Of a stretch of DNA of 33,238 bases, positions 14,489-32,303 are shown piece by piece. The stretch is from positions 1 to 33,238 of the forward strand of contig JAGSHH010000010.1 of NCBI GenBank assembly GCA_023954655.1. The letters run 5' to 3'. The notes beneath the pieces were generated by a model. The model saw only the letters and a list, made by a program, of their open reading frames with translations, was not told the origin of the DNA and made no database searches. Position numbers and translations under genes: made by a program. Origin of the DNA: Colwelliaceae bacterium. Lineage in GTDB: Bacteria; Pseudomonadota; Gammaproteobacteria; Enterobacterales; Alteromonadaceae. How positions within the stretch are numbered: the first letter of the stretch is position 1; each line of letters opens with the position of its first letter.

Positions 14489-15643
14489 ATGCTTAAAAAC
14501 TTAACGATCGATGAACTTGAAGTAGGTATGTTTGTTAAAGACATTATCCTCAAAGATAGTGATCATAAAGTTAAAAATCAGGGAGTAGTTAACTCTCAAA
14601 GAACAATAGAACTACTAAAAAAACAAGGTGTTGTTCGGGTTGTTATCGAGTGCGATGAAGAAGCAGCTAATGATTCTGTTTCTAAGGGGTCTGAAGGTAA
14701 TTCAGAAGTTTCTTTAGAAAATGAATTTTCCAACTCTTGTGATCTTTATGAGCAAGCAGCTGAAAATGTAAAACAGTTATTTCTAAATGCTTCTACCTCT
14801 AAACCTTTGACAATTGCCTCGATGAATGCACTTGCAAATGAAATCACTGATTCTATTACAAGAAATGAACATGCGATGACTATTTTAACGCGCATTCGGC
14901 AAAAATCGAATTATCAACGAGAGCATGCTATAAATTGTGCAGTATTAATTTGTGGGTTTTCATTATATTTAGGGCTTAAAAAAGAAAAAGTTCAAGAGTT
15001 AACCTTAGGTGCATTACTGCATGACATAGGCACAGCAAAAGTATCTACAACTATTCTAGATAAGCAGGACAAACTCACTAAAAATGAAATGTCTGTAGTC
15101 CAAAAGCATGTTTTTTGGGGAGTTGAAATAGCTAAAAGAGAAGGTTTTTCAAGTCCTATTATAATTGACATGCTTGTAAACCATCACGAAAGATTAGACG
15201 GTTCCGGTTACCCAAGGGGAATTGACAAGTCAAAAATATCTAAGCTTTCTCGTATTATCGCCATTATTGATGTTTATGACGCTATGACAGGCGATAAACC
15301 TTATAAAAAAGGGTTATTACCACAAGCCGTTTTTCGTCATTTACTCAAAGAAAAAGAAAAATTTGATCCTGAAATTGTACAACAATTTATAAAATATATT
15401 GGCATACATCCTGTTGGTTCATTAGTAAAATTATCAAATGATAAAATAGGTATTGTGCTTGAAGGAAATAGAGTAGAACCACTAAAGCCTAAAATCAAAG
15501 TCATTTATAGTTTAAAACTTAATAGCTATACCAAACCTATTGAATATGATCTAACCGAAGAAGAGTTTGGTATTGTTGCAGCTATTCAAGCAAGCGATTA
15601 TCAAATTAACTTAAATAAAACAATTAGAGATATTGTCAGTTAA
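14489..15643 (+). CDS. HD-GYP domain cyclic-di-GMP phosphodiesterase with N-terminal DUF3391
   Basis: A 384-residue cytoplasmic protein. Residues 1-~100 match the DUF3391 module (LTIDELEVGMFVKDI...) that precedes many HD-GYP domains. The HD-GYP domain spans ~125-320 with the intact metal-binding HD pair H178-D179 (LLHDIGTAK), H232-H233 and the GYP signature (HHERLDGSGYPRG, GYP 240-242), plus DVYDAMT (261-267). It should hydrolyse c-di-GMP to pGpG or GMP. There is no receiver or membrane segment, so control must come through protein contact or expression. It is convergent with the H-NOX-associated response regulator operon (16-nt gap). A weak AAGG lies 12 nt before the ATG. The link with the NO network is inferred from position only. 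Confidence 0.93.
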   Translation: MLKNLTIDELEVGMFVKDIILKDSDHKVKNQGVVNSQRTIELLKKQGVVRVVIECDEEAANDSVSKGSEGNSEVSLENEFSNSCDLYEQAAENVKQLFLNASTSKPLTIASMNALANEITDSITRNEHAMTILTRIRQKSNYQREHAINCAVLICGFSLYLGLKKEKVQELTLGALLHDIGTAKVSTTILDKQDKLTKNEMSVVQKHVFWGVEIAKREGFSSPIIIDMLVNHHERLDGSGYPRGIDKSKISKLSRIIAIIDVYDAMTGDKPYKKGLLPQAVFRHLLKEKEKFDPEIVQQFIKYIGIHPVGSLVKLSNDKIGIVLEGNRVEPLKPKIKVIYSLKLNSYTKPIEYDLTEEEFGIVAAIQASDYQINLNKTIRDIVS

Positions 15644-15659
15644 AATACATACTTTGAAA

Positions 15660-17006
15660 TTATTTCCATTTGCTCATTTTTCTATAGATTGTTGAAGGGT
15701 TAATGCCTAAAGAGGCTGCTGCTAATGTTACATTTCCTTGATATTTATTTAATACCGTTTTAATAGCATTACGCTCTATCACTTCAAGCGTTAATCCTTC
15801 TATTTCAGAACTATCAGATTTTATACTAGATCTTTCTAGAGAGAAGCCTGATAAATCATCATCATCTTCGAAACATGAAGAAAGCATTGGTTCAGTTATA
15901 ATTTTACAATCATTCATGATTATGATTTGATGAATTTTGTTTTCAAGCTCTCTAACGTTTCCTGGCCAATCGTATGATAAAAGTGATTCAATTGCGCTTT
16001 TGGAGAAACCAGTAAAGTCTTTTTTATATTCAGCATTAAACTTATTTAGAAAGTAAACTGCTAAATTAACAATATCTTCTTCTCGCTCCCTTAATGCGGG
16101 TATTGATAATTTAATAACACCTAATCTATAATACAAATCTGATCTGAATTTTCCTTGAAGTGTAGCTTCTTTCAGAGATATTGACGAAGCAGATATTATC
16201 TGCGCTTCCAGTTTAATTACTTTTTGACTTCCTAATGGTGTGAATTCTCTTTCTTGAATAACACGTAATAACTTTGCTTGTAATTCTAATGGGAGAGTTG
16301 TGACTTCATCTAGGAAAACACTGCCTTTACCAGCTTGTTCTAATAGTCCAACAAAGTCTTTGTCTGCACCAGTAAATGCCCCCTTTTTGTGTCCAAATAA
16401 TTGTGATTCTATTAATGATTCAGATAAATTTGCACAATTAAAAGCTATATACGGATTATCTGAACAAACACCAAAATGATGGCACGATTTAGCAACAAGC
16501 TCCTTACCTGAACCAGTTTCACCAAATATAAAAATAGGAACATTGGCTCCTGCCACCCTAGATATATCATTTTTAAGTTTAATCATCGATTGGTGCTCCC
16601 CAATAAAAGGAAAGCTTTTATTCTCAATTAGAGAACTATCAGGAATTAAAGAAGTAATTAAATCTCTTATTTTCTTATTATCCCACGGTTTGCTCAAAAA
16701 GTACTGAATGGCTCCACTATTAAACCCATTGATTACAACATCAAAATCTTGAAAAGCACTCAATAGTATTCGCGAGCAGCTAGGTAATTTGTCTGATATA
16801 ACAGTAAGTAAATCTAGTCCATTCATAAAAGGCATACGCTGATCTGAAATAATAATATTCGGTTTATTAATCAGACATTCTTCTAGTACGATAGCGGGCG
16901 ATGTAAATGTAATAATTTCGACGGGTAAAATACGTAAAACTCTAGTCAAAGCATTTAATATTTCAGTCTCATCATCAACCAAGAAAACTAAAATTTTATC
17001 ACTCAT
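15660..17006 (-). CDS. NtrC-type sigma-54-dependent response regulator (HnoC-like position)
   Basis: A 448-residue three-domain regulator. The receiver domain (1-~120) has the acidic pair D11-D12, phospho-acceptor D55 (IIISDQRMP), S83 and K106. The AAA+ domain (~135-370) has Walker A GETGSGKE (162-169), the sigma-54-contacting GAFTGA loop (209-214) and Walker B FLDEV (231-235). A Fis-type helix-turn-helix (GNVTLAAASLGINPSTIYRKM) ends the protein. It overlaps the upstream receiver/HD-GYP-like gene by 8 bases and is co-transcribed with it. In the S. oneidensis H-NOX network the DNA-binding response regulator is HnoC. This gene holds the equivalent place, though I cannot confirm orthology. The intact GAFTGA loop implies it activates sigma-54 promoters. 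Confidence 0.93.
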   Translation of the reverse strand: MSDKILVFLVDDETEILNALTRVLRILPVEIITFTSPAIVLEECLINKPNIIISDQRMPFMNGLDLLTVISDKLPSCSRILLSAFQDFDVVINGFNSGAIQYFLSKPWDNKKIRDLITSLIPDSSLIENKSFPFIGEHQSMIKLKNDISRVAGANVPIFIFGETGSGKELVAKSCHHFGVCSDNPYIAFNCANLSESLIESQLFGHKKGAFTGADKDFVGLLEQAGKGSVFLDEVTTLPLELQAKLLRVIQEREFTPLGSQKVIKLEAQIISASSISLKEATLQGKFRSDLYYRLGVIKLSIPALREREEDIVNLAVYFLNKFNAEYKKDFTGFSKSAIESLLSYDWPGNVRELENKIHQIIIMNDCKIITEPMLSSCFEDDDDLSGFSLERSSIKSDSSEIEGLTLEVIERNAIKTVLNKYQGNVTLAAASLGINPSTIYRKMSKWK

Positions 17007-18258
17007 TTTTTTCGCCTAATCCCTTTACATAAATTATGAGTTCTTCATTGATATTCTCTTCAATTACAGCAAGTCTTTCTATTAGATTTGGTAACAAAGT
17101 AACACCCTCAGCCAATAGTTTAGTACCACTGTTTTGATATAAGTCTTGAGCAAGGATCATCCCTTCTCTTAACTCCTTAATAGAATGAGCTCTTTCTATA
17201 CTGAATTCAGACGTTTTATTTTGCAATTCTATAAAATGGCTCAAAATAGTTTGATCTATTTCTGATTTGTAACGATCTTTTATTAATACTTTTGCTTTAG
17301 TTGGTGACATTTTATTACCAGTAATAGCTCCTGAAACAAGCTCATCAAATAAAGAAACAACACGAAGAATTTTTGTTTCTTTTAACAGAGATGCTTCTGA
17401 AGAATTATTTGAATCATATAAATGTAAAACTATTTCAGAGCATGGTATTAATAGATCAACAGTTGCCATTAATTCAGCACTTATCTGTACACTCTCTTGG
17501 AAAAGCTTAACTTCATCATAAGATAATGAATCTCTAGCTTTATTTATCAATTCACTATCAATACCTGTCAAACCTATTCGGTATAACAAGGCAGAAAAAT
17601 GAAGATTTATACGCTGCTGAATAGATAAACCTAATGTTTCAGCTAAAACAGTAGCTTGTTCAGCGACTCTTTGTTCGTGTCCTTCTTGGCGATGAAATAA
17701 TGAGACACTTATCATTGATAACAATGTTAATAACTGTTTGACAGATTTTTTTTGGCTTAAGAGCTCTTTATTAACAGCTTCCTGTTCATCTAACATTCCT
17801 GTAATAACATTTAACATTGAATCGATTGACAGTTGTGTAATTGTTTTATTTTTTTGTAATGATTTAATTTTTTTATTGGTTTTTTGTTTAGAAATTAAAC
17901 CTAAAGTTAATTCTTTTAATTTTTCTATTAAATCTTGATTATTCCAAGGTTTAGAAATATATGCAGCAATGTCAGCATTATTAATAGCTTTCTCTGTCGC
18001 TTCAATATCTGCATAACCAGATAGAATGCAACATTTAGTTAAAGGATTAATAGTATGAATTTGTGTTAATAGTTCCTCCCCTTGCATACCTGGCATTTTC
18101 ATATCGGATAATACTAGATGAGTAGGGTTTAATTTAAAAAACTCTAATGCTTGTTCACCTGATTGAAATGAATGCACAATAAAATCTCGCTTTAAAACAC
18201 GATTAAGAGAGCTTAGAACTTCAGGTTCATCATCAACAATAAGAATACTAGGTAACAT
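16999..18258 (-). CDS. Response regulator with degenerate HD-GYP domain (HnoD-like)
   Basis: A 419-residue protein. The receiver domain (1-~120) is intact: D9-D10, phospho-acceptor D52 (LVLSDMKMP), S80, K103. A helical linker (~125-180) follows. Residues ~185-310 align by pattern with HD-GYP (EGHEQRVAEQATVLAETLG, then FSALLYRIGLTGI, then SELINK). The catalytic HD is replaced by Tyr226-Arg227, and the HHExxDGxGYP segment by HLYDSNNSSE (279-288). It therefore cannot be expected to hydrolyse c-di-GMP. The C-terminal ~60 residues (LREGMILAQDLY...LLPNLIERL) are the module often found after such domains. HnoD of S. oneidensis has this same architecture and restrains the phosphodiesterase HnoB. It overlaps the NtrC-type gene and is divergent from H-NOX, so it is probably phosphorylated by the neighbouring kinase. 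Confidence 0.88.
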   Translation of the reverse strand: MLPSILIVDDEPEVLSSLNRVLKRDFIVHSFQSGEQALEFFKLNPTHLVLSDMKMPGMQGEELLTQIHTINPLTKCCILSGYADIEATEKAINNADIAAYISKPWNNQDLIEKLKELTLGLISKQKTNKKIKSLQKNKTITQLSIDSMLNVITGMLDEQEAVNKELLSQKKSVKQLLTLLSMISVSLFHRQEGHEQRVAEQATVLAETLGLSIQQRINLHFSALLYRIGLTGIDSELINKARDSLSYDEVKLFQESVQISAELMATVDLLIPCSEIVLHLYDSNNSSEASLLKETKILRVVSLFDELVSGAITGNKMSPTKAKVLIKDRYKSEIDQTILSHFIELQNKTSEFSIERAHSIKELREGMILAQDLYQNSGTKLLAEGVTLLPNLIERLAVIEENINEELIIYVKGLGEKNE

Positions 18259-18335: not shown

Positions 18336-18875
18336 ATGAAAGGCTCTGTATTTAATGGTTTTGAGAAATTTGTCACTGATGTATTTGGGCTTGAAAAATG
18401 GCAAGAAATTATTGATAGTGGTGCAAGCTCTACCAATGGCATTTATTTAGCATCTGAGCTGTATGATGACGATGAGATTAAAAAGCTTTTAGCTGCTTTG
18501 TCTGGAATAGCAAATATTGAATCGTCTTGTCTTCAAAGAGATTTTGGACAATTTATATTTCCCGTCTTATATAATAGCTTGATAGATATGCTCAGCGATA
18601 TTGACGACTTATTTGATTTTCTTATCGCCGTTGATAATGTCATACATGTTGAAGTACAAAAGTTGGACCCCCAAGCTTATACTCCTACTTTGTTTTATGA
18701 CCAACCTGATGAAAATACATTATTAATTCGATACATTTCAAATAGGAAGATGTGCTACTTTGCTGAAGGTTTGATTTTCGGTGCTGCTGAAAAATTTTGT
18801 AATGAAATTAAGGTAAGCCAAGACTGTTGTTTAAATGAAGGTCATGAGCATTGTATTATTAGGGTTAATCGATAA
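18336..18875 (+). CDS. hnoX: H-NOX haem nitric-oxide sensor
   Basis: A 179-residue cytosolic haem protein of the HNOB family (MKGSVFNGFEKFV start). The axial haem ligand is His104 in VIHVEVQKL, with the conserved Pro116. The haem-propionate-binding Y-x-S-x-R motif is Y133-S135-R137 (YISNR), followed by FAEGLIFGA. Length is typical for stand-alone bacterial H-NOX. There is no obvious distal-pocket tyrosine, consistent with a NO rather than an O2 sensor. In Vibrio and Shewanella, ferrous NO-bound H-NOX inhibits its partner kinase. The C-terminal Cys cluster (C140, C164, C165, C173), which binds zinc in Shewanella H-NOX, is present in altered form. The kinase gene begins two bases after this stop codon. 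The start is fixed by homology to the family N-terminus. Confidence 0.95.
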   Translation: MKGSVFNGFEKFVTDVFGLEKWQEIIDSGASSTNGIYLASELYDDDEIKKLLAALSGIANIESSCLQRDFGQFIFPVLYNSLIDMLSDIDDLFDFLIAVDNVIHVEVQKLDPQAYTPTLFYDQPDENTLLIRYISNRKMCYFAEGLIFGAAEKFCNEIKVSQDCCLNEGHEHCIIRVNR

Positions 18876-18876
18876 T

Positions 18877-20295
18877 ATGGACATTAAAAAAAAGTTAGAC
18901 TTATTAACAAAAGCTTTGGAACGAGAAAAAGCTGCTCGACAATTACTAGAAAAGAAACTTGATGAACAGAACAAAGTAAAGTTTGAAGTAAATCAAGAAT
19001 TATTAAAGTCATATGAAAACGCTAGAATTAGAGAAGTTCAGCTCCAGTTCCTAAGTTTCTTATCAAGTAATAATATTGATGATAAAAACTTCACTGAAAT
19101 GCTTCAATATTTTGCTCAAAATATTGCCCTACTTCTAGATAATGCACCTGTATGTATAATCATGAGACAAAATCATGAAGTCACTAAAGTATGGTGCAAA
19201 CCTAAACAAAAAAACGCTTGGGTCACTTTATCAAATAAATTCGAAGATATTAATTTTGCTTTTGTCACAACACAATGGAGTAAGGTCGGTACAAAAGTTC
19301 CACAAATTAATGAAATTTTAGAAAATGAATATTTAATCGCAATTGACTTTCCTTATAGTGTAAATAGTGATGTGATAATAATTCTTGGCGGTAGCCACTT
19401 TTGCTATAGTGATGATTTAAAACAAACTTTAGATATTGCAGCTAAACAATTTTCATCTATTTTAGATAAACGGCTCACTGATGTTGAATTATCAATTAAT
19501 TTTAAAAAATTAAAAAAAACAATGTCTGTTTTAAAATCCACACAAAATCAACTTATTCATTCAGAAAAAATGGCTTCCTTAGGAACTCTGGCTGCAGGTG
19601 TTGCACATGAAATAAACAACCCTCTTAGTTTCCTTACTAGTAATTTGGAGACACTTAATGAATACATTCAAGTATTAATGACTAATAATATTAATCAGTT
19701 ATCCGAATGTAAAAATTTAGAAAATAAATCCGACTTAACAGCTGTATTAGAGGATTTACCTGATTTACAACGTGCCTGTTTAGATGCAACAAAACGAATT
19801 GCTGAAATAGTTAATAGTTTACGTAGCTTTTCTCGTAAAGAAGAAAAAGATAAACACTTAATAAATATTGAAGAGCCAATCAATGCAGCTTTAGAAATAA
19901 TAAAAAACGAATTGAAACATAAATTTAAAATTAAAAAACATATTATCGCTGATTTACCTAATATTTGGGCTAATTTTGGACAGCTACAACAAGTATTCGT
20001 TAATTTATTAATGAACGCAGTCCATGCAATGCCAAATGGTGGCTTAATTACAATAACAACAAAAGTAACTAATGATTCTTTAGTTTTAATTTTTGAAGAT
20101 GAAGGGTGTGGTATTCAAAAGAAATTAATAAAACGTTTATTTGAGCCATTTTATACAACTAAAAAAGTCAATGAGGGCACTGGTTTAGGCCTTTCTGTTT
20201 CTTATGCAATAATAAATAATCATAATGCAAATATTAAAGTTGAGTCTAAAGTTGATAAAGGGAGTAAATTTATAATTTCATTCCCTTTATCCTAA
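18877..20295 (+). CDS. hnoK: H-NOX-associated histidine kinase (HnoK-like)
   Basis: A 472-residue soluble histidine kinase with no membrane segment. Residues 1-55 form a charged coiled coil. Residues ~60-200 are a GAF-like sensory region that I cannot classify further. The H-box has phospho-acceptor His244 (GVAHEINNPL). The ATPase domain has the N-box with N380 (VNLLMNAVHAM), G1 DEGCG (408-412), F-box FEPFYTTK and G2 GTGLG (434-438). The frame extends back to an ATG at 18835 inside H-NOX. The ATG at 18877 gives the usual H-NOX-kinase N-terminus and follows AGGG, so I chose it. It lies directly behind H-NOX and diverges from two response regulators, which are the expected phosphotransfer targets; NO-bound H-NOX should inhibit autophosphorylation. 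Confidence 0.93.
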   Translation: MDIKKKLDLLTKALEREKAARQLLEKKLDEQNKVKFEVNQELLKSYENARIREVQLQFLSFLSSNNIDDKNFTEMLQYFAQNIALLLDNAPVCIIMRQNHEVTKVWCKPKQKNAWVTLSNKFEDINFAFVTTQWSKVGTKVPQINEILENEYLIAIDFPYSVNSDVIIILGGSHFCYSDDLKQTLDIAAKQFSSILDKRLTDVELSINFKKLKKTMSVLKSTQNQLIHSEKMASLGTLAAGVAHEINNPLSFLTSNLETLNEYIQVLMTNNINQLSECKNLENKSDLTAVLEDLPDLQRACLDATKRIAEIVNSLRSFSRKEEKDKHLINIEEPINAALEIIKNELKHKFKIKKHIIADLPNIWANFGQLQQVFVNLLMNAVHAMPNGGLITITTKVTNDSLVLIFEDEGCGIQKKLIKRLFEPFYTTKKVNEGTGLGLSVSYAIINNHNANIKVESKVDKGSKFIISFPLS

Positions 20296-20301
20296 TTCAC
20301 C

Positions 20302-20472
20302 TTACAATGATGCCAATTGAGTATTAGGTTTATAAATATGAAATACATTATACCTACTATCATGAAAGTTTTGTTGACTCGGATCTCTGAACATAATCGA
20401 CACTTCCATATCTCTATCAAAGAATTTAGAAACTGCCAGCAATAATGCTATAGCTGCAGGTATTGAACGCAT
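20302..20472 (-). pseudogene. Possible 3' gene fragment, unidentified (56 codons)
   Basis: A short minus-strand frame beginning MRSIPAAIALLLAVSKFF and continuing through DRDMEVSIMFRDPSQQ to YNVFHIYKPNTQLASL and a stop. From about the AVSKFF point onward the codon choice and residue mix look like a real protein end. The first ~15 codons are antisense to the DUF1194-like remnant and probably not native. No ribosome binding site is clear. I do not recognise the family. It may be the tail of a deleted gene, or chance. Confidence 0.35.
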
Positions 20473-20737
20473 CAATGGAATTGTTATTACAACTGATCAA
20501 AGAGTCATTGATGAATATTCTCAAGAAGTTGTAAATGGTAGTAATGCGTTTTTACTAGCCCCTGCTAATTTTAATGATTTCCAAAAAGCGATTGAAAATA
20601 AAATAGTTGCAGAAATATCTAATGTAGCACCACCAGGTAATGTGATAAAAGTACCGGAACCCAACCCATTGTTATTAATGCTAATTTCTTTAATTTATAT
20701 ATATTTAAAACCTTATTTTAAGAGGAGAACATCATGA
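20378..20737 (+). pseudogene. 3' remnant of a DUF1194-like protein with PEP-CTERM-like tail
   Basis: The frame is open from 20378 to a TGA at 20735-20737 but has no ATG, GTG or TTG start in its first ~85 codons. The segment AIAAGIERINGIVITTDQ, then VVNGSNAFLLAPANFNDFQKAIENKI, matches the C-terminal pattern of DUF1194 (von Willebrand A-like) proteins. It ends with VPEPNPLLLMLISLIYIYL and a basic KRR tail, the layout of a PEP-CTERM exosortase sorting signal. Intact relatives have a signal peptide and over 100 more residues. Sequence upstream of about 20432 does not continue the family, so the gene has lost its 5' part. The stop overlaps the next gene's ATG (ATGA), evidence that the two were once an operon. 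Family assignment is from memory of the pattern. Confidence 0.6.
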
Positions 20738-21144
20738 AATATTTTTTATTAATAACAACATTATTTTTTTCAGCGTATGGTTTCTCTCAAGAAAGTGAAT
20801 ACCAAATAGAGTTTGGTGTTGTCATTCACAATAAAGCAGGAGAACCTATCGGATTCGAACAAACTACAACAATTCCTATCAATTCAAAAGGAAATAATTC
20901 GCTTTATGGGATGGTAATTACTCGTGATAATACTAAATCTTTTAAATTAGGATCTGTGCATATTTTACCTAAAAACCCCAAAAACTGGAAAAAAGTAATT
21001 GGTAAAAGTATGAACATAGAAAAGAAAGGAGCTGTTTTTATGAGAACATCTCAAGATGACCCACCAGGAATATATTTAATGGAAATATATATTGATAGTA
21101 TACTTTTTCACACGTTTGAATATCAATTAATTGAATCAATTTAA
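20734..21144 (+). CDS. Small secreted protein of unknown function
   Basis: A 136-residue protein with an N-terminal signal peptide (MKYFLLITTLFFSAYGFSQ, cleavage near residue 18). The remainder is mostly beta-strand in character with no Cys and no motif I recognise. It has a strong AGAGGAG ribosome binding site 6 nt before the ATG. The ATG overlaps the stop of the DUF1194/PEP-CTERM-like remnant, so it was probably the second gene of that unit and may work with that surface or exported protein. Because its partner is truncated, expression now depends on whatever promoter remains in 20296-20733. The frame itself is intact. The name stays hypothetical. Confidence 0.75.
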   Translation: MKYFLLITTLFFSAYGFSQESEYQIEFGVVIHNKAGEPIGFEQTTTIPINSKGNNSLYGMVITRDNTKSFKLGSVHILPKNPKNWKKVIGKSMNIEKKGAVFMRTSQDDPPGIYLMEIYIDSILFHTFEYQLIESI

Positions 21145-25691: not shown

Positions 25692-26738
25692 TTAAGTCGT
25701 TTTCTTAGTTAGTAGCATGGCATCACCATAACTAAAAAAACGATATTTTTCGGTCACAGCATGTTGATATGCTGACATAATATTTTCATAGCCAGCGAAA
25801 GCACTCACTAGCATTAATAAAGTTGATTCAGATAGATGAAAATTAGTAATCAAGGCATCAATCACTTCAAATTGATAACCTGGCGTAATAAAAATATCAG
25901 TATCACCATAAAACTCTTTTAACGGCAGGCCATTTTGAATTGATGTTTTGGCAGCACTTTCAAGGGAACGTACTGATGTAGTACCAACAGCAATAACTCG
26001 CTTACCGGCTGCTTTAGTTTTATTAACTTGGTTAACAACCTCAATTGGAACTTCAGCATATTCAGCATGCATAATATGATCAGCAATGTTATCAACTCTT
26101 ACAGGTTGGAATGTTCCCGCGCCAACATGCAAAGTTACAAAAGCAAAGTTAACACCTTTTTCAGTTAGCTTAGAAAGTAATGCATCATCAAAATGCAAAC
26201 CTGCGGTTGGCGCGGCTACAGCGCCTGGTTTTTCATTATAAACCGTTTGGTATCGCTCTTTGTCACTTGCTTCATCTGGACGATCAATATATGGAGGAAG
26301 CGGCATATGCCCTACATCTTCTAATACTTGAAGAATATTTTCTTCAGAATGAATTTCTAGTTCAAATAATGCACCATGCCTTGCAATCATGGTGGCATCA
26401 ACTTTATTTTCTAAACGTATCTCTGTGCCTTCTTTTGGCGACTTACTCGCGCGAACATGCGCTAAAAACCTTTTATCATCTAATAGTCTTTCAACTAATA
26501 CCTCGACTTTACCACCACTGGATTTTTGGCCAAATAGTCTTGCGGGAATTACACGGGTATTGTTAAAAACTAATAAGTCGCCTTCATTAACTTGTTCCAA
26601 AATATCAACAAAAGTTGAGTCTGTAATTTTTCCGCTATTACCATCAAGCGTCATTAAACGGCTAGATGATCTATTTTCTTTAGGATAACGAGCAATTAGC
26701 TCTTCGGGTAGATTAAAGGTAAAGTCGGCAACACGCAT
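25692..26738 (-). CDS. queA: S-adenosylmethionine:tRNA ribosyltransferase-isomerase
   Basis: A 348-residue enzyme that moves the ribosyl part of S-adenosylmethionine onto preQ1-tRNA to make epoxyqueuosine. Motifs: [56 protein letters not shown] and [20 protein letters not shown]. The usual NFHLP has Ser in place of Pro, a mild variation. It is the first gene of the queA-tgt-yajC-secD-secF operon. The ATG has no strong ribosome binding site, but the [11 protein letters not shown] start is the family norm. It diverges from aceK across a 197-bp region. Confidence 0.96.
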
Positions 26739-29153: not shown

Positions 29154-32100
29154 ATGAAGTTTTTTTGTCATTACAAAATTTTCTATACACTGGCACTCGT
29201 GTTCTTTTGTTATTTATTACCTACAGCAAATGCAGCAGATAAAGCTGTTTCCACCAAATATTTCTATAAAAAATATCAAAGTATTTTTACAAAAAATAAT
29301 TTACCAGATCATGAAAAAATAACGCGAGGACAAACGCTTCTTTTTGACATAAATGAAAATCAACATCCTCAAATAGCATCCTTAACATATTTAAAGTTAA
29401 TGCACTTGAGTGCTAAAAAGGCCGATAAAGAAAGATTTAACCTATGGAAAAATAAATTAATCGGATTGACTTTATCTAAGAGTGATCAAAACGTTATCAA
29501 CTTTCTTGCCGAACTATACAGCATGGCACTGAACCACAATGAAGGGCAGTATATTATTGCCATTTCCCAAGGGGAATCACTTAAAAAACAATTGAATGGC
29601 TTTAATACTCAGCAAAAAGATAACTTCGTTGATAATAAACTTTTTCTAAGCGAGCTTAATAAAGCCACTTTGCTTAATTTACTAGGAGATAGTTTTTTTC
29701 GCACCTCAGAATTCGAAGCTGCTCAACAACACTTTCTTTTCGCTATGGATATTTATAAAAAATATAATATCTCAAAAGGAAAGATAAAAATTTATAACAA
29801 TTTATCAATGATAAGTTGGGCTCAACAAAATTATGAAGAAGCTATTTATCTATTAAAAGAGTCATTAGTCATTTCAAAAGAATCACCAGATGAAGAAAGT
29901 TATTTAACGGGGCTAACAAATTTAGGTATCTATTACGCTGAGGATGAACAATTTGATAATGCCCTGTCCTCATACAATAAGGTATTAGATCATCCGAATA
30001 TTAATCAATATTCAAAAATTCAAATACAAGCACTTATTTCAAAAGCTGAATCTTTTCAATCGATAGGCGAGTTTGCTAAAAGTGAACAACTTATTCAGCA
30101 ATCATTATTAATCAGTACTCAAACAAATGACGAGATAAACCTCACCATTTCTAAAGTAGCATTAGCTGACTTATTAACGCATCAAGGAAAATTTGATCTT
30201 GCTTTAAACTTTTATCTTAAAGCAATGAAGCATTTTAAAGAATTAAACCTCATTAATAATGAAGTAAAAACCCTTTTACAAATAAGTAATTTATATAAAA
30301 AACAAGGACAACTAAATAAAGCACTAATATATTTAGAATTATATAATGAGCGTAGTATCGAAATATTAGTTAAGGCTCAAAAAAGCTCGATAATAAATTT
30401 ACATGCGAAATATCAAGTAAAATCTCAAGAAGAAAAAATAAATTTACTCAAACAAGAAAATGAGCTTAACTCTGCAGAAATAAAACAAACTAGTGTTCAA
30501 AAGAAATATATTCTACTTATAAGTATGTTTGTTCTCATATTGATATTACTTTTATCTAGGATCTATTACTCTCGTCAACAATCATTACGCTTAAAAATTC
30601 ATAATGATGAAATAAAAGATAATGAGAAACAATTATTACTGCTGTCTCATGCTTTTAGTAAAACCTCAGATGCAGTTTGGATCACCAATGCAGATTTTGA
30701 AATAGAATCAGTAAACAATGCCTTCGTTCAACATACTCACAAAACCAAACATGAAGTTATCGGCAAAAAAGTAAACTTTGCTAGTATTAAAGGTCAAGAT
30801 GATAATCTTGCTAGAAAAATAATGCTTCAAGCTAAAATAGACGAAATGTGGCACGGAGAGTTATTTGATGAGCGATCAGAGGGTGAAATATACCGTATAG
30901 AACTTGATATTGAAGTAATAAAAAATGAGCAGAATGATATCATTCATTATTTAGGCGTTTTTAGGGATATTACTGAACGCAATAAGTCTCAAGAGCAACT
31001 AACAAAATTCGCAACACACGATGATTTGACAGGTTTGCCAAACAGAACCTTATTAGACCAACTCATTAAACAATCTTGCTTAAACGCAAAGCATTCTAAG
31101 AAAACACCTACATTATTATTACTTGATGTAAATGGCTTTAAGAAAATCAACGATTCTTTTGGTCATAAAACTGGCGATAATGTTATCCGTGAAATATCGG
31201 AACGTTTAAAATCCAAACTCTATTCTAAAGATGTAATTGCTCGAATTAATGGTGCTGAGTTTTGTATTCTAGCCGAATTAAATGAACCCAAACGCAGCGC
31301 TGCTCGTGTTGCACAAAAAATTATATCCATTTTTGATTCACCTTTTGTTGTAGACAACACGTCATTACCTTTAACTGCAAGTATGGGAATTAGTTTATAT
31401 CCCGATGATAGTATCACTCCACAGGGATTACTTAAAAACTCAGCAATTGCAATGCTCGATGTCAAAAATAGTGATAGTTATCGCTATCGTTTTTTTGAAG
31501 AACATATGAACAATGAAGTTGCAAAACAACTGGAACTAGAGCAAAAGTTACTCAATGCAATAGTAAATAAACATTTTGAATTTTATTATCAACCGGTAGT
31601 CAACACTAAAACTGACTGTATAACAGGCGCTGAAGCATTAATACGTTGGATAGAACCAGATGGTACAGTGATATCCCCAGCTCAATTTATTCCTCTCGCC
31701 GAACAAGCTGGCTTTATTGACCAAATTGATCGTATTACTATCGATAAAGTTTTTGAGCAAGTATCAAAATGGCAACTTGACGGTAAAAATTTTGGTGCCA
31801 TCTCTATTAATATATCAGGAAAAATGTTTTCACAACCTTCTGAATTGTTAACAATGTTACAGGCTAAGTTAAGTCAATTTTCTATACCCGCTAATTGTAT
31901 AAAAATAGAAATTACAGAAGGCATGTTATTACATAATATTGACCAAGCTATTGAAACAATGAAAAGCATAAAATTATTAGGGTTCCAATTAGCACTAGAT
32001 GATTTTGGAACTGGCTTTTCATCCCTCAATTATTTGAAAAAATTTCCTATCGATATATTAAAAGTAGACCGAAGTTTTATTATGGGTATGCATGAATGCG

Positions 32101-32303
32101 CTACGGACCAAAGTATTGTTCGCTCTATCATTTCATTAGCACATACGCTTAATTTAAAAGTAGTTGGTGAAGGTGTTGAATTAGATGAACATTTAGATGA
32201 ATTAAAGAAAATGAATTGTGAAGAATATCAAGGTTATGTCTATAGTAAACCAGTCCCGTTAGAATCATTCGAAACTTTATTGAGTACGTCAGTAAAACAA
32301 TAG
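29154..32303 (+). CDS. Membrane TPR-PAS-GGDEF(degenerate)-EAL cyclic-di-GMP signalling protein
   Basis: A 1049-residue protein. It has a signal sequence (cleavage near TANA, residue 27), a periplasmic helical region with tetratricopeptide repeats (about 165-400, e.g. LLNLLGDSFFRTSEFEAA, TNLGIYYAEDEQFDNA), one membrane helix (452-469) and a PAS domain (~495-610). A GGDEF domain (~615-780) follows, with the active-site motif reduced to NGAEF (699-703). The C-terminal EAL domain (~795-1040) keeps E827-A828-L829, N887, E919, D949-D950, K970, E1006 and Q1026, the set needed for metal and c-di-GMP hydrolysis. It is thus probably a phosphodiesterase whose dead GGDEF may bind GTP as a regulator. TPR repeats likely sense a periplasmic partner. 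It stands alone, with only a weak ribosome binding site. Confidence 0.94.
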   Translation: MKFFCHYKIFYTLALVFFCYLLPTANAADKAVSTKYFYKKYQSIFTKNNLPDHEKITRGQTLLFDINENQHPQIASLTYLKLMHLSAKKADKERFNLWKNKLIGLTLSKSDQNVINFLAELYSMALNHNEGQYIIAISQGESLKKQLNGFNTQQKDNFVDNKLFLSELNKATLLNLLGDSFFRTSEFEAAQQHFLFAMDIYKKYNISKGKIKIYNNLSMISWAQQNYEEAIYLLKESLVISKESPDEESYLTGLTNLGIYYAEDEQFDNALSSYNKVLDHPNINQYSKIQIQALISKAESFQSIGEFAKSEQLIQQSLLISTQTNDEINLTISKVALADLLTHQGKFDLALNFYLKAMKHFKELNLINNEVKTLLQISNLYKKQGQLNKALIYLELYNERSIEILVKAQKSSIINLHAKYQVKSQEEKINLLKQENELNSAEIKQTSVQKKYILLISMFVLILILLLSRIYYSRQQSLRLKIHNDEIKDNEKQLLLLSHAFSKTSDAVWITNADFEIESVNNAFVQHTHKTKHEVIGKKVNFASIKGQDDNLARKIMLQAKIDEMWHGELFDERSEGEIYRIELDIEVIKNEQNDIIHYLGVFRDITERNKSQEQLTKFATHDDLTGLPNRTLLDQLIKQSCLNAKHSKKTPTLLLLDVNGFKKINDSFGHKTGDNVIREISERLKSKLYSKDVIARINGAEFCILAELNEPKRSAARVAQKIISIFDSPFVVDNTSLPLTASMGISLYPDDSITPQGLLKNSAIAMLDVKNSDSYRYRFFEEHMNNEVAKQLELEQKLLNAIVNKHFEFYYQPVVNTKTDCITGAEALIRWIEPDGTVISPAQFIPLAEQAGFIDQIDRITIDKVFEQVSKWQLDGKNFGAISINISGKMFSQPSELLTMLQAKLSQFSIPANCIKIEITEGMLLHNIDQAIETMKSIKLLGFQLALDDFGTGFSSLNYLKKFPIDILKVDRSFIMGMHECATDQSIVRSIISLAHTLNLKVVGEGVELDEHLDELKKMNCEEYQGYVYSKPVPLESFETLLSTSVKQ

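Follow-up and report, generated by a model that had tools for sequence, protein, structure and literature searches.

What does a response regulator do when its HD-GYP domain has lost the residues for cutting c-di-GMP but still sits beside a nitric-oxide sensor and its kinase? This question is raised by a 33,238-nucleotide stretch of DNA from a Colwelliaceae bacterium, here called the window. A dead protein of this kind is not in itself new, since Shewanella HnoD is already known beside an H-NOX and a kinase. In S. oneidensis, HnoD is described as a degenerate HD-GYP protein without phosphodiesterase activity that suppresses HnoB by direct interaction (PMC6335343) and is fed by an H-NOX-controlled kinase (PMC6335343, PMC8846402, PMC8738867), one account calling its inactive domain a DGC (PMC8738867). 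In the passages concerned, reviews explain HnoD solely through inhibition of HnoB. The window carries the following features.

14489-15643, forward strand: DUF3391 plus intact HD-GYP (HHERLDGSGYP), the yardstick for metal ligands and a candidate partner.
15660-17006, reverse strand: LuxO/NtrC-type sigma-54 response regulator, with receiver, AAA+ (GAFTGA at 209) and Fis-type HTH.
16999-18258, reverse strand: dead HD-GYP response regulator, 419 aa, ATG start, no internal stop; receiver (residues 5-114), long helix, degenerate HD-GYP (about 186-350), C-terminal domain.
18336-18875, forward strand: H-NOX haem NO-binding sensor, HNOB domain, YISNR motif at 133.
18835-20295 (start codon uncertain), forward strand: H-NOX-associated, HnoK-like kinase, HisKA with HEINN at 258, HATPase.
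20305-20430, reverse strand: remnant of the cassette membrane protein, last 42 positions (about 285 aa in relatives).
20378-20734, forward strand: remnant of a DUF1194 (VWA-like) protein, C-terminal part with a VPEP tail.
20734-21144, forward strand: small secreted cassette protein, 136 aa, frame intact.

The YISNR motif and the candidate haem ligand His104 are what we take to be the H-NOX hallmarks of the sensor. A GGDEF-EAL protein is also encoded in the window, at 29154-32303, and has no receiver.

The regulator at 16999-18258 matches two Pfam domains above their cut-offs, Response_reg (1.5e-23) and HD_5 (4.2e-14). As originally predicted, its receiver is intact (D9, D10, D52 and K103 are present), its HD pair reads Tyr226-Arg227, and the HHExxDGxGYP segment is replaced, in a shortened loop, by HLYDSNNSSE at residues 279-288. 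The predicted loss of metal ligands was borne out and proved larger than claimed: against the eight ligands of PmGH (E185, H189, H221, D222, H250, H276, H277 and D305; PMC4159591), seven are gone and H189 alone has a counterpart, His194. E185 falls on Arg190 (placed by spacing, not alignment), H221 and D222 on Tyr226 and Arg227, H250 on Ser256, H276 and H277 on Leu280 and Tyr281, and D305 on Ser302. With relatives that keep E..DG.G as a guide, the register of the His pair was refined from His279-Leu280 to Leu280-Tyr281, so that neither His of the pair is left. PmGH R192 (by spacing) and D308 correspond to Arg197 and Asp305, neither of which varies among the ten proteins of alignment A1. The intact HD-GYP at 14489-15643 served to locate the ligands, which makes it a yardstick and not an independent control. 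With one ligand in eight and no HHExxDGxGYP loop, the domain lacks the features of a catalytic HD-GYP phosphodiesterase.

The fold is kept, judged by the HD_5 match and a predicted model. Structural matches to the predicted model (VIA-align) were filled by receiver domains, and the top HD-GYP domain among the matches listed was c-di-GMP-bound DvhD, to which model residues 157-355 correspond (Z 19.9, rmsd 3.4, 195 residues aligned); within the HD model, confidence is lowest at the lost GYP loop (block mean pLDDT 62). Sequence and model together thus support the original prediction of a dead enzyme with a retained HD-GYP fold and an intact receiver, and we read the protein as a putative non-catalytic output regulator of the H-NOX/HnoK two-component system. 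By analogy with HnoD, its role may be allosteric and controlled by phosphorylation.

The same HD-pair residues are lost widely. None of 47 HnoD-like rows, which were chosen by similarity to the dead protein and so favour dead ones, has an intact HD pair; the loss is therefore beyond chance and, being common to the 46 aligned relatives, is not an event of the window protein alone. The loop motif is likewise gone in the relatives L049, L057, L059 and L061, and the complete cassette of L049 holds a comparably eroded HD site.

Genome neighbourhoods were surveyed at 40 loci, from 40 of 138 matching genomes. The block of kinase, H-NOX, dead HD-GYP and sigma-54 regulator genes is present in 11 relatives, a conserved cassette of marine bacteria, with H-NOX and kinase lying next to the dead HD-GYP gene and transcribed divergently from it, as in the window. 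The dead HD-GYP gene lies immediately ahead of the sigma-54 gene in all 11, at a gap of -17 to +35 bases in the nine loci with a placeable start, and in the window the two overlap by 8 bases. The pairing is not absolute, because four members of the protein's own clade have the dead HD-GYP gene without a nearby H-NOX or sigma-54 gene. Three further genes accompany the block in 11/11 relatives, one for a membrane protein, one for a DUF1194 protein whose tail is PEP-CTERM-like and one for the small secreted protein; this trio occurs at none of the other distinct dead HD-GYP loci among L049-L168. Of 295 family genomes, 13 carry cassette markers: those of the 11 relatives, that of the window with its remnant, and one more that has two paralogs. 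Against TIGR02595 (cut-off 16), one cassette DUF1194 protein scores above (L052, 21.3) and two below (L054, 15.2; L049, 14.2), and two score 13.0 and 18.2 against PF07589 (cut-off 20.7). DUF1194 is the sole match of the window's remnant among Pfam profiles. The small secreted protein has no match to E 1 in Pfam or NCBIfam; its single-sequence structure model (mean pLDDT 61.5) is too low in confidence to use.

Between the membrane-protein and DUF1194 genes of the relatives, sigma-54-like sites flank the intergenic region on one side in 10/11 and on the other in 11/11, and on both sides in 10/11, versus a shuffle mean of 0.11. Between these divergent promoter-like sites stands the palindrome TTGCA-N3-TGCAA, a LuxO-type enhancer, with 16 sites across 11/11 intergenics versus a shuffle mean of 0.81, the motif and threshold having been chosen after inspection of the same intergenics; nine further sites lie in the other 181 kb. 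The element TTGCAWWWTGCAA has been published independently as a LuxO UAS, at which SypG and LuxO sites overlap (PMC10162802). Of 14 genomes, 7 contain a strict paired pattern, at 18 places in all: seven cassettes, two further symmetric pairs and nine others, the backward control pattern occurring at none in the 14. One extra pair (L199) precedes a PEP-CTERM gene and the other (L198) has, by eye, a sigma-54-like site; four of the nine others (L200-L203) have no cassette homolog, and L203 has a GGDEF match.

Which activator binds the palindrome is a separate matter. The regulator at 15660-17006 has the marks of a sigma-54 enhancer-binding protein, an AAA+ domain with the GAFTGA loop and a Fis-type HTH, and scores 307.5 bits on the NCBIfam LuxO model, below its cut-off of 800. 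It need not be the binder, because each of the 11 relatives also carries a LuxO-like paralog, which outscores the cassette activator on that model in 9/11; this paralog may own the palindrome. PrsR was judged a less likely owner: its published motif ends TTTACA, which occurs in 3/11 cassette intergenics (TGTAAA occurs in two others). The paired site is absent from G034, a genome that has PrsR and a LuxO-like paralog without any cassette marker, but this is a weak argument against PrsR because the cassette genomes G147, G111, G142 and G030 (4/11) also lack the strict site. On the PrsR model (cut-off 502.6), cassette activators score 304.8-323.8 bits among nine matches listed and the window's 291.8, and a separate PrsR stands above the cut-off in 13/14 genomes, the window's being the exception.

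An identification of 15660-17006 as HnoC was ruled out by its NtrC/LuxO-type architecture. HnoC is a small regulator, and the one of about 190 aa (HTH, then receiver) that adjoins HnoB-type genes in Alteromonas-like loci presumably fits it better.

The window's own copy is damaged. The membrane-protein gene is missing for the most part, the promoters are gone and the DUF1194 gene is halved, its remnant lacking anything that corresponds to residues 1-152 of the L049 protein; the cause is either a deletion or an assembly error. No enhancer palindrome was found in the window, even allowing one mismatch, and scans for the sigma-54 consensus inside it gave no clear excess (13 versus 14.3 expected; 14 versus 10.3 expected), so that the evidence for cassette promoters is from the relatives alone.

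We give about even odds to a reading in which the dead HD-GYP protein is a pseudo-enzyme switched by phosphorylation, belongs to a pathway from nitric oxide to sigma-54, does not cleave c-di-GMP and acts by protein contact. When NO is absent, the kinase would phosphorylate both the dead regulator and the sigma-54 activator, and the latter would then switch on the surface-protein genes; NO-bound H-NOX would turn this activation off. The dead protein is predicted to tune the sigma-54 arm by binding to either the activator or the kinase. Weighing against this reading are the LuxO-like paralogs, the four relatives that lack the strict site, the clade members in which the pairing is missing and, in the window, the broken target genes, the missing enhancer and a genome (80.6% complete) with neither exosortase nor PrsR above cut-off. 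A fuller version is put forward only tentatively: a c-di-GMP phosphodiesterase fold would have been recruited as the partner of a sigma-54 activator, and an H-NOX, one kinase and two regulators would control a divergent pair of sigma-54 promoters for an exosortase-type surface protein system, with no c-di-GMP step.

The most serious competitor, though an unlikely one, is that the protein does what HnoD does: until phosphorylated, it would inhibit a c-di-GMP phosphodiesterase, either one encoded at another site in the genome or the neighbouring intact HD-GYP (14489-15643). Direct suppression of HnoB in S. oneidensis (PMC6335343) is the precedent; two receiver-EAL proteins (L010 and L012) are encoded in the window's own genome, and G118, G142 and G056 each have, away from the cassette, a receiver-GGDEF-EAL match over the full length, which in two of these genomes is interrupted by a single stop. 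However, a receiver-EAL gene stands beside the cassette in 0/12 loci (11 relatives and the window), and the other 9/12 cassette genomes have no full-length HnoB-type match among the matches listed (to about 4e-52). An intact HD-GYP adjoins the cassette in the window and in L049, but in only 1/11 relatives. In a quick tree, moreover, the dead proteins adjoining HnoB-type genes sit in other branches. On descent, the same tree places the Shewanella fodinae homolog L124 in another branch. The likeness to HnoD holds for the architecture and for the adjoining H-NOX and kinase; it fails in that no HnoB adjoins and the second regulator is a LuxO-type sigma-54 protein, not HnoC.

It is improbable that the receiver acts as a phosphate sink, draining phosphoryl groups from the kinase while the dead domain merely dimerises, and here the evolution of the gene bears on the matter. 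An intact receiver joined to a domain that keeps its fold and the R197/D305 pair and has no active site would suit this role, and in the pairs measured the dead HD-GYP gene evolves faster than either the H-NOX or the sigma-54 gene, its dN being highest or near-highest among five cassette genes. Yet in three relatives of one genus the dead HD part (170 codons) shows dN of 0.13-0.15 versus dS of 1.5-2.0, the latter near saturation. This is purifying selection, judged tighter than a bare dimeriser requires; three of six pairs of the gene were left out, their dS being saturated. The selection originally proposed for the window protein is to that extent upheld in relatives, the window gene itself having no close relative with which to test it (best identity 38-39%).

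Still less probable is a c-di-GMP receptor that binds the nucleotide without cutting it: the retained fold and the match to c-di-GMP-bound DvhD speak for it, but neither the metal ligands nor the GYP loop survive, the modelled loop is of low confidence, and the relatives L049, L057, L059 and L061 lack the loop motif too. Least credible is decay of the gene in a lineage shedding the cassette, for although the adjoining output genes are truncated and the window's genome (80.6% complete) has no match above cut-off to exosortase or PrsR, the 419-codon frame is open, the key receiver residues are kept, all four regulatory genes are open, and the HD site is comparably eroded in the complete cassette of L049.

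From this branch, which keeps the H-NOX kinase and has a sigma-54 activator as its companion, it follows that dead HD-GYP regulators can persist with no HnoB adjoining. What such pseudo-phosphodiesterases bind can be tested directly here, the cassette being defined, of seven genes and equipped with predicted promoters. If the nitric-oxide to sigma-54 reading is true, NO sensing would be joined to a PEP-CTERM-like surface protein; a search of one literature collection, limited to the words H-NOX and PEP-CTERM, found no paper combining them.

Several known systems resemble parts of this arrangement. VC1087 of Vibrio cholerae is likewise a receiver plus HD-GYP without an intact HD motif, and no phosphodiesterase activity was found in the work described (PMC4212101). 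PrsK/PrsR offers a sigma-54 response regulator and PEP-CTERM genes preceded by -24/-12 sites (PMC1569441), but the PrsR motif ends TTTACA, unlike the cassette palindrome. In Vibrio fischeri, an NO-sensing H-NOX (HnoX) restrains the kinase HahK, which drives a SypG-dependent biofilm programme, the signal passing via SypF or LuxU (PMC12369376), whereas the window cassette encodes kinase and activator together, plus a dead HD-GYP regulator. NosR of Burkholderia pseudomallei is a receiver-HD-GYP protein with an altered motif, HG-GTP, phosphorylated by an NO-linked kinase whose HEINN motif is identical to that of the window kinase (NosP/NosK/NosR; PMC12570481); the sensor there is NosP, a FIST-domain protein, and the account of the system mentions no sigma-54 partner in the portion consulted (PMC12570481), while the window protein scores 242.7 on the NCBIfam NosR model, below its cut-off of 400. 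Nearest is HnoD, the S. oneidensis protein being compared by description: both join a receiver to a degenerate HD-GYP beside an H-NOX and a kinase, but the window cassette has no adjoining receiver-EAL gene or small HnoC-type regulator, and pairs its dead regulator instead with a sigma-54 activator of LuxO type and with genes for surface proteins.

The dead HD-GYP regulator, a HnoD-like protein, lies in the window among the following cassette genes:

16999-18258, minus strand: dead HD-GYP regulator, 419 residues, with receiver and HD_5 domains, each above the Pfam cut-off
directly behind it, same strand, 8-base overlap: sigma-54 response regulator carrying GAFTGA plus an HTH of the Fis type
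18336-18875, divergent from the dead HD-GYP gene: H-NOX
18835-20295, divergent from the dead HD-GYP gene: histidine kinase
20305-20430, minus strand: remnant of the membrane-protein gene (last 42 positions)
match from 20414, plus strand: remnant of the DUF1194 gene (C-terminal part), adjoining the membrane-protein remnant

The original prediction, that the HD pair has become Tyr226-Arg227 and that residues 279-288 read HLYDSNNSSE in a protein still possessing its receiver, was borne out, with the register from relatives shifting the lost His pair to Leu280-Tyr281. Among the eight metal ligands of the active enzyme PmGH, as given in excerpts of PMC4159591, only H189 retains its counterpart, His194, the E185 position being placed by spacing. 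Arg197 and Asp305, equivalent to R192 and D308 of PmGH, which the same source connects with the fold surrounding the metal site, persist and are invariant across a ten-protein alignment (there numbered one lower). In an AlphaFold model (mean pLDDT 85.9, 28 sequences in the alignment), 195 residues of the HD-GYP domain superimpose on the solved DvhD structure (rmsd 3.4, Z 19.9), and the expected place of the GYP loop is of low confidence. Because the ligands are lost and the fold is retained in both sequence and model, as had been anticipated, the protein is a predicted pseudo-enzyme with its scaffold retained.

Metal-site loss as such is ordinary among relatives. An intact HD pair occurs in none of 47 HnoD-like proteins (the window's and those of 46 relatives, after removal of duplicates and of matches with E above 1e-20), a set biased to dead members by its gathering through similarity to a dead protein. 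Ligand places were mapped via the intact HD-GYP protein at 14489-15643, where all seven are present by construction. Among the 12 proteins from cassettes like the window's, 8 have His at the H189 position and 4 have it at the first place of the HD pair; all 12 have lost D222, H250, H276, H277 and D305.

The proposed selection on the regulator is seen, roughly, in relatives' genes: across three congeneric relatives (L051, L053, L054), dN/dS is 0.05-0.11, with dN 0.13-0.15 vs dS 1.5-2.0 in the HD part, ratios that are rough because dS is near saturation; three further pairs were left out since their dS was unusable. This evidence comes from relatives: the closest relative of the window's own gene is 38-39% identical, and the window's genus has three genomes. 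In the same three pairs, the whole gene has dN 0.13-0.16, compared with 0.05-0.06 (H-NOX), 0.07-0.12 (sigma-54 gene), 0.06-0.12 (membrane protein) and 0.07-0.16 (DUF1194 gene); the dead HD-GYP gene is thus constrained, yet among the fastest-changing cassette genes.

The protein was matched at 1e-20 in 138 of 295 family genomes, and among 40 of these whose surroundings were examined, eleven carry the kinase, H-NOX, dead HD-GYP and sigma-54 genes arranged as in the window. When flanking genes were clustered, three more proved common to all eleven and, among loci L049-L168, confined to them (L089-L091 duplicate the L049, L051 and L058 records): a membrane protein of ~285 aa (no family above cut-off), a VPEP-tailed DUF1194 protein, and a small secreted one. 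Since the membrane-protein profile matches only 13/295 genomes (the eleven, the window's remnant, and G047 with paralogs at L215 and L217), few if any extra cassettes are expected outside the 40 loci. A quick tree of 98 proteins joins the window's protein and that of L049, one of the eleven, as sisters (support 100). Both belong to a 16-member branch (support 99) made up of 12 cassette members plus four with neither H-NOX nor a sigma-54 gene nearby; proteins adjoining HnoB-type genes fall outside. As L088 and L141, also outside, likewise combine a HnoD-like protein with H-NOX and a sigma-54 regulator, this association may have more than one origin. L088, from the window's genus (G076), encodes a different HnoD-like protein (25% identical), accompanied by H-NOX, a kinase and a sigma-54 regulator in divergent orientation; the three output genes are absent there. 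On a Candidatus Anammoxibacter contig (L120), a stretch of 21 kb encodes three HnoD-like proteins alongside several kinases.

In the relatives, the membrane-protein and DUF1194 genes diverge from a shared intergenic region. The palindrome TTGCA-N3-TGCAA (up to one mismatch) occurs there at 16 sites, in 11/11 regions, against a mean of 0.81 (largest 4) in 300 shuffles, and the remaining 181 kb of these loci contain 9; a second, weaker copy (up to three mismatches) lies 21-23 bases from the best site in nine loci and 32-33 in two. Sigma-54-like sites (GG and GC required, with 8 or more of the 11 consensus positions matching) point toward the DUF1194 gene in 10/11, the membrane-protein gene in 11/11 and both in 10/11 (shuffle mean 0.11, largest 1), with 23 in 3.9 kb of intergenic DNA vs 154 in 181 kb. 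Motif and threshold were picked after first inspection of these regions, a choice for which the shuffles are uncorrected. A LuxO-type reading has independent support, because the LuxO enhancer published in PMC10162802, as excerpted, is TTGCAWWWTGCAA; the motif reported for PrsR (PMC1569441, in part) differs. A LuxO-like paralog, present in all eleven relatives and outscoring the cassette activator on the LuxO model in 9/11, counts against the latter as palindrome binder.

The strict paired pattern was found in 7/14 genomes, and its backward control in none of the 14. Outside cassettes it precedes a second PEP-CTERM gene in G027 (PF07589 4.3e-7; L199:5808-6632, with a TGG..TTG-like site), which may be another target of the activator, and lies with a sigma-54-like site in G001 (L198:5372-5594), where by eye a stem-loop-like stretch and a ~65-codon ORF follow that might correspond to a small RNA or protein; nine other places also have it, and the four of them inspected showed no cassette homolog. 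In Colwellia and Psychromonas (L092:9883, L094:6204), a one-mismatch palindrome separates the same two regulator genes, there divergent and with no H-NOX seen nearby, perhaps reflecting autoregulation.

In the window, the promoters and enhancers between the two output genes are missing. Across 20305-20734 both N-terminal parts are gone with them, as if by one >1 kb deletion, or the assembly may be wrong at 20.4 kb. No second copy of either gene was found elsewhere in the genome, nor was an exosortase (present in 12/14 genomes searched, including all eleven relatives) or PrsR above cut-off (13/14), absences that, like the deletion, are provisional because the assembly is 80.6% complete in 220 contigs. 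A 128-codon ORF at 26180-26566 (plus strand), opposite the gene at 25692-26738, is probably spurious.

The two receiver proteins are encoded together with the kinase. NO on H-NOX would inhibit the kinase, as described for H-NOX elsewhere (PMC6335343, PMC8846402, PMC8738867, in part); the sigma-54 regulator, from co-conservation and motifs, would most likely switch on the membrane-protein and DUF1194 promoters; and the dead HD-GYP regulator would most likely work through a phosphorylation-dependent contact inside this H-NOX/kinase/sigma-54 arm. Among the papers searched, none was found to describe such a cassette variant or to name H-NOX and PEP-CTERM together. The dead regulator is a well-grounded case of an ordinary loss within this variant.

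In Shewanella oneidensis, HnoD suppresses its target, the EAL regulator HnoB (excerpts of PMC6335343), whereas no receiver-EAL gene adjoins the cassette in the window or the eleven relatives. The window's GGDEF-EAL protein (29154-32303) is without a receiver, and its genome encodes two short receiver-EAL proteins. Among the matches listed for a HnoB-like query (L069; down to ~4e-52), full-length ones occur in G118, G142 and G056, with none from the remaining nine cassette genomes. A precedent for the proposed arm is found in V. fischeri, in which, according to the portion of PMC12369376 available, H-NOX acts via a kinase on a SypG-dependent programme.
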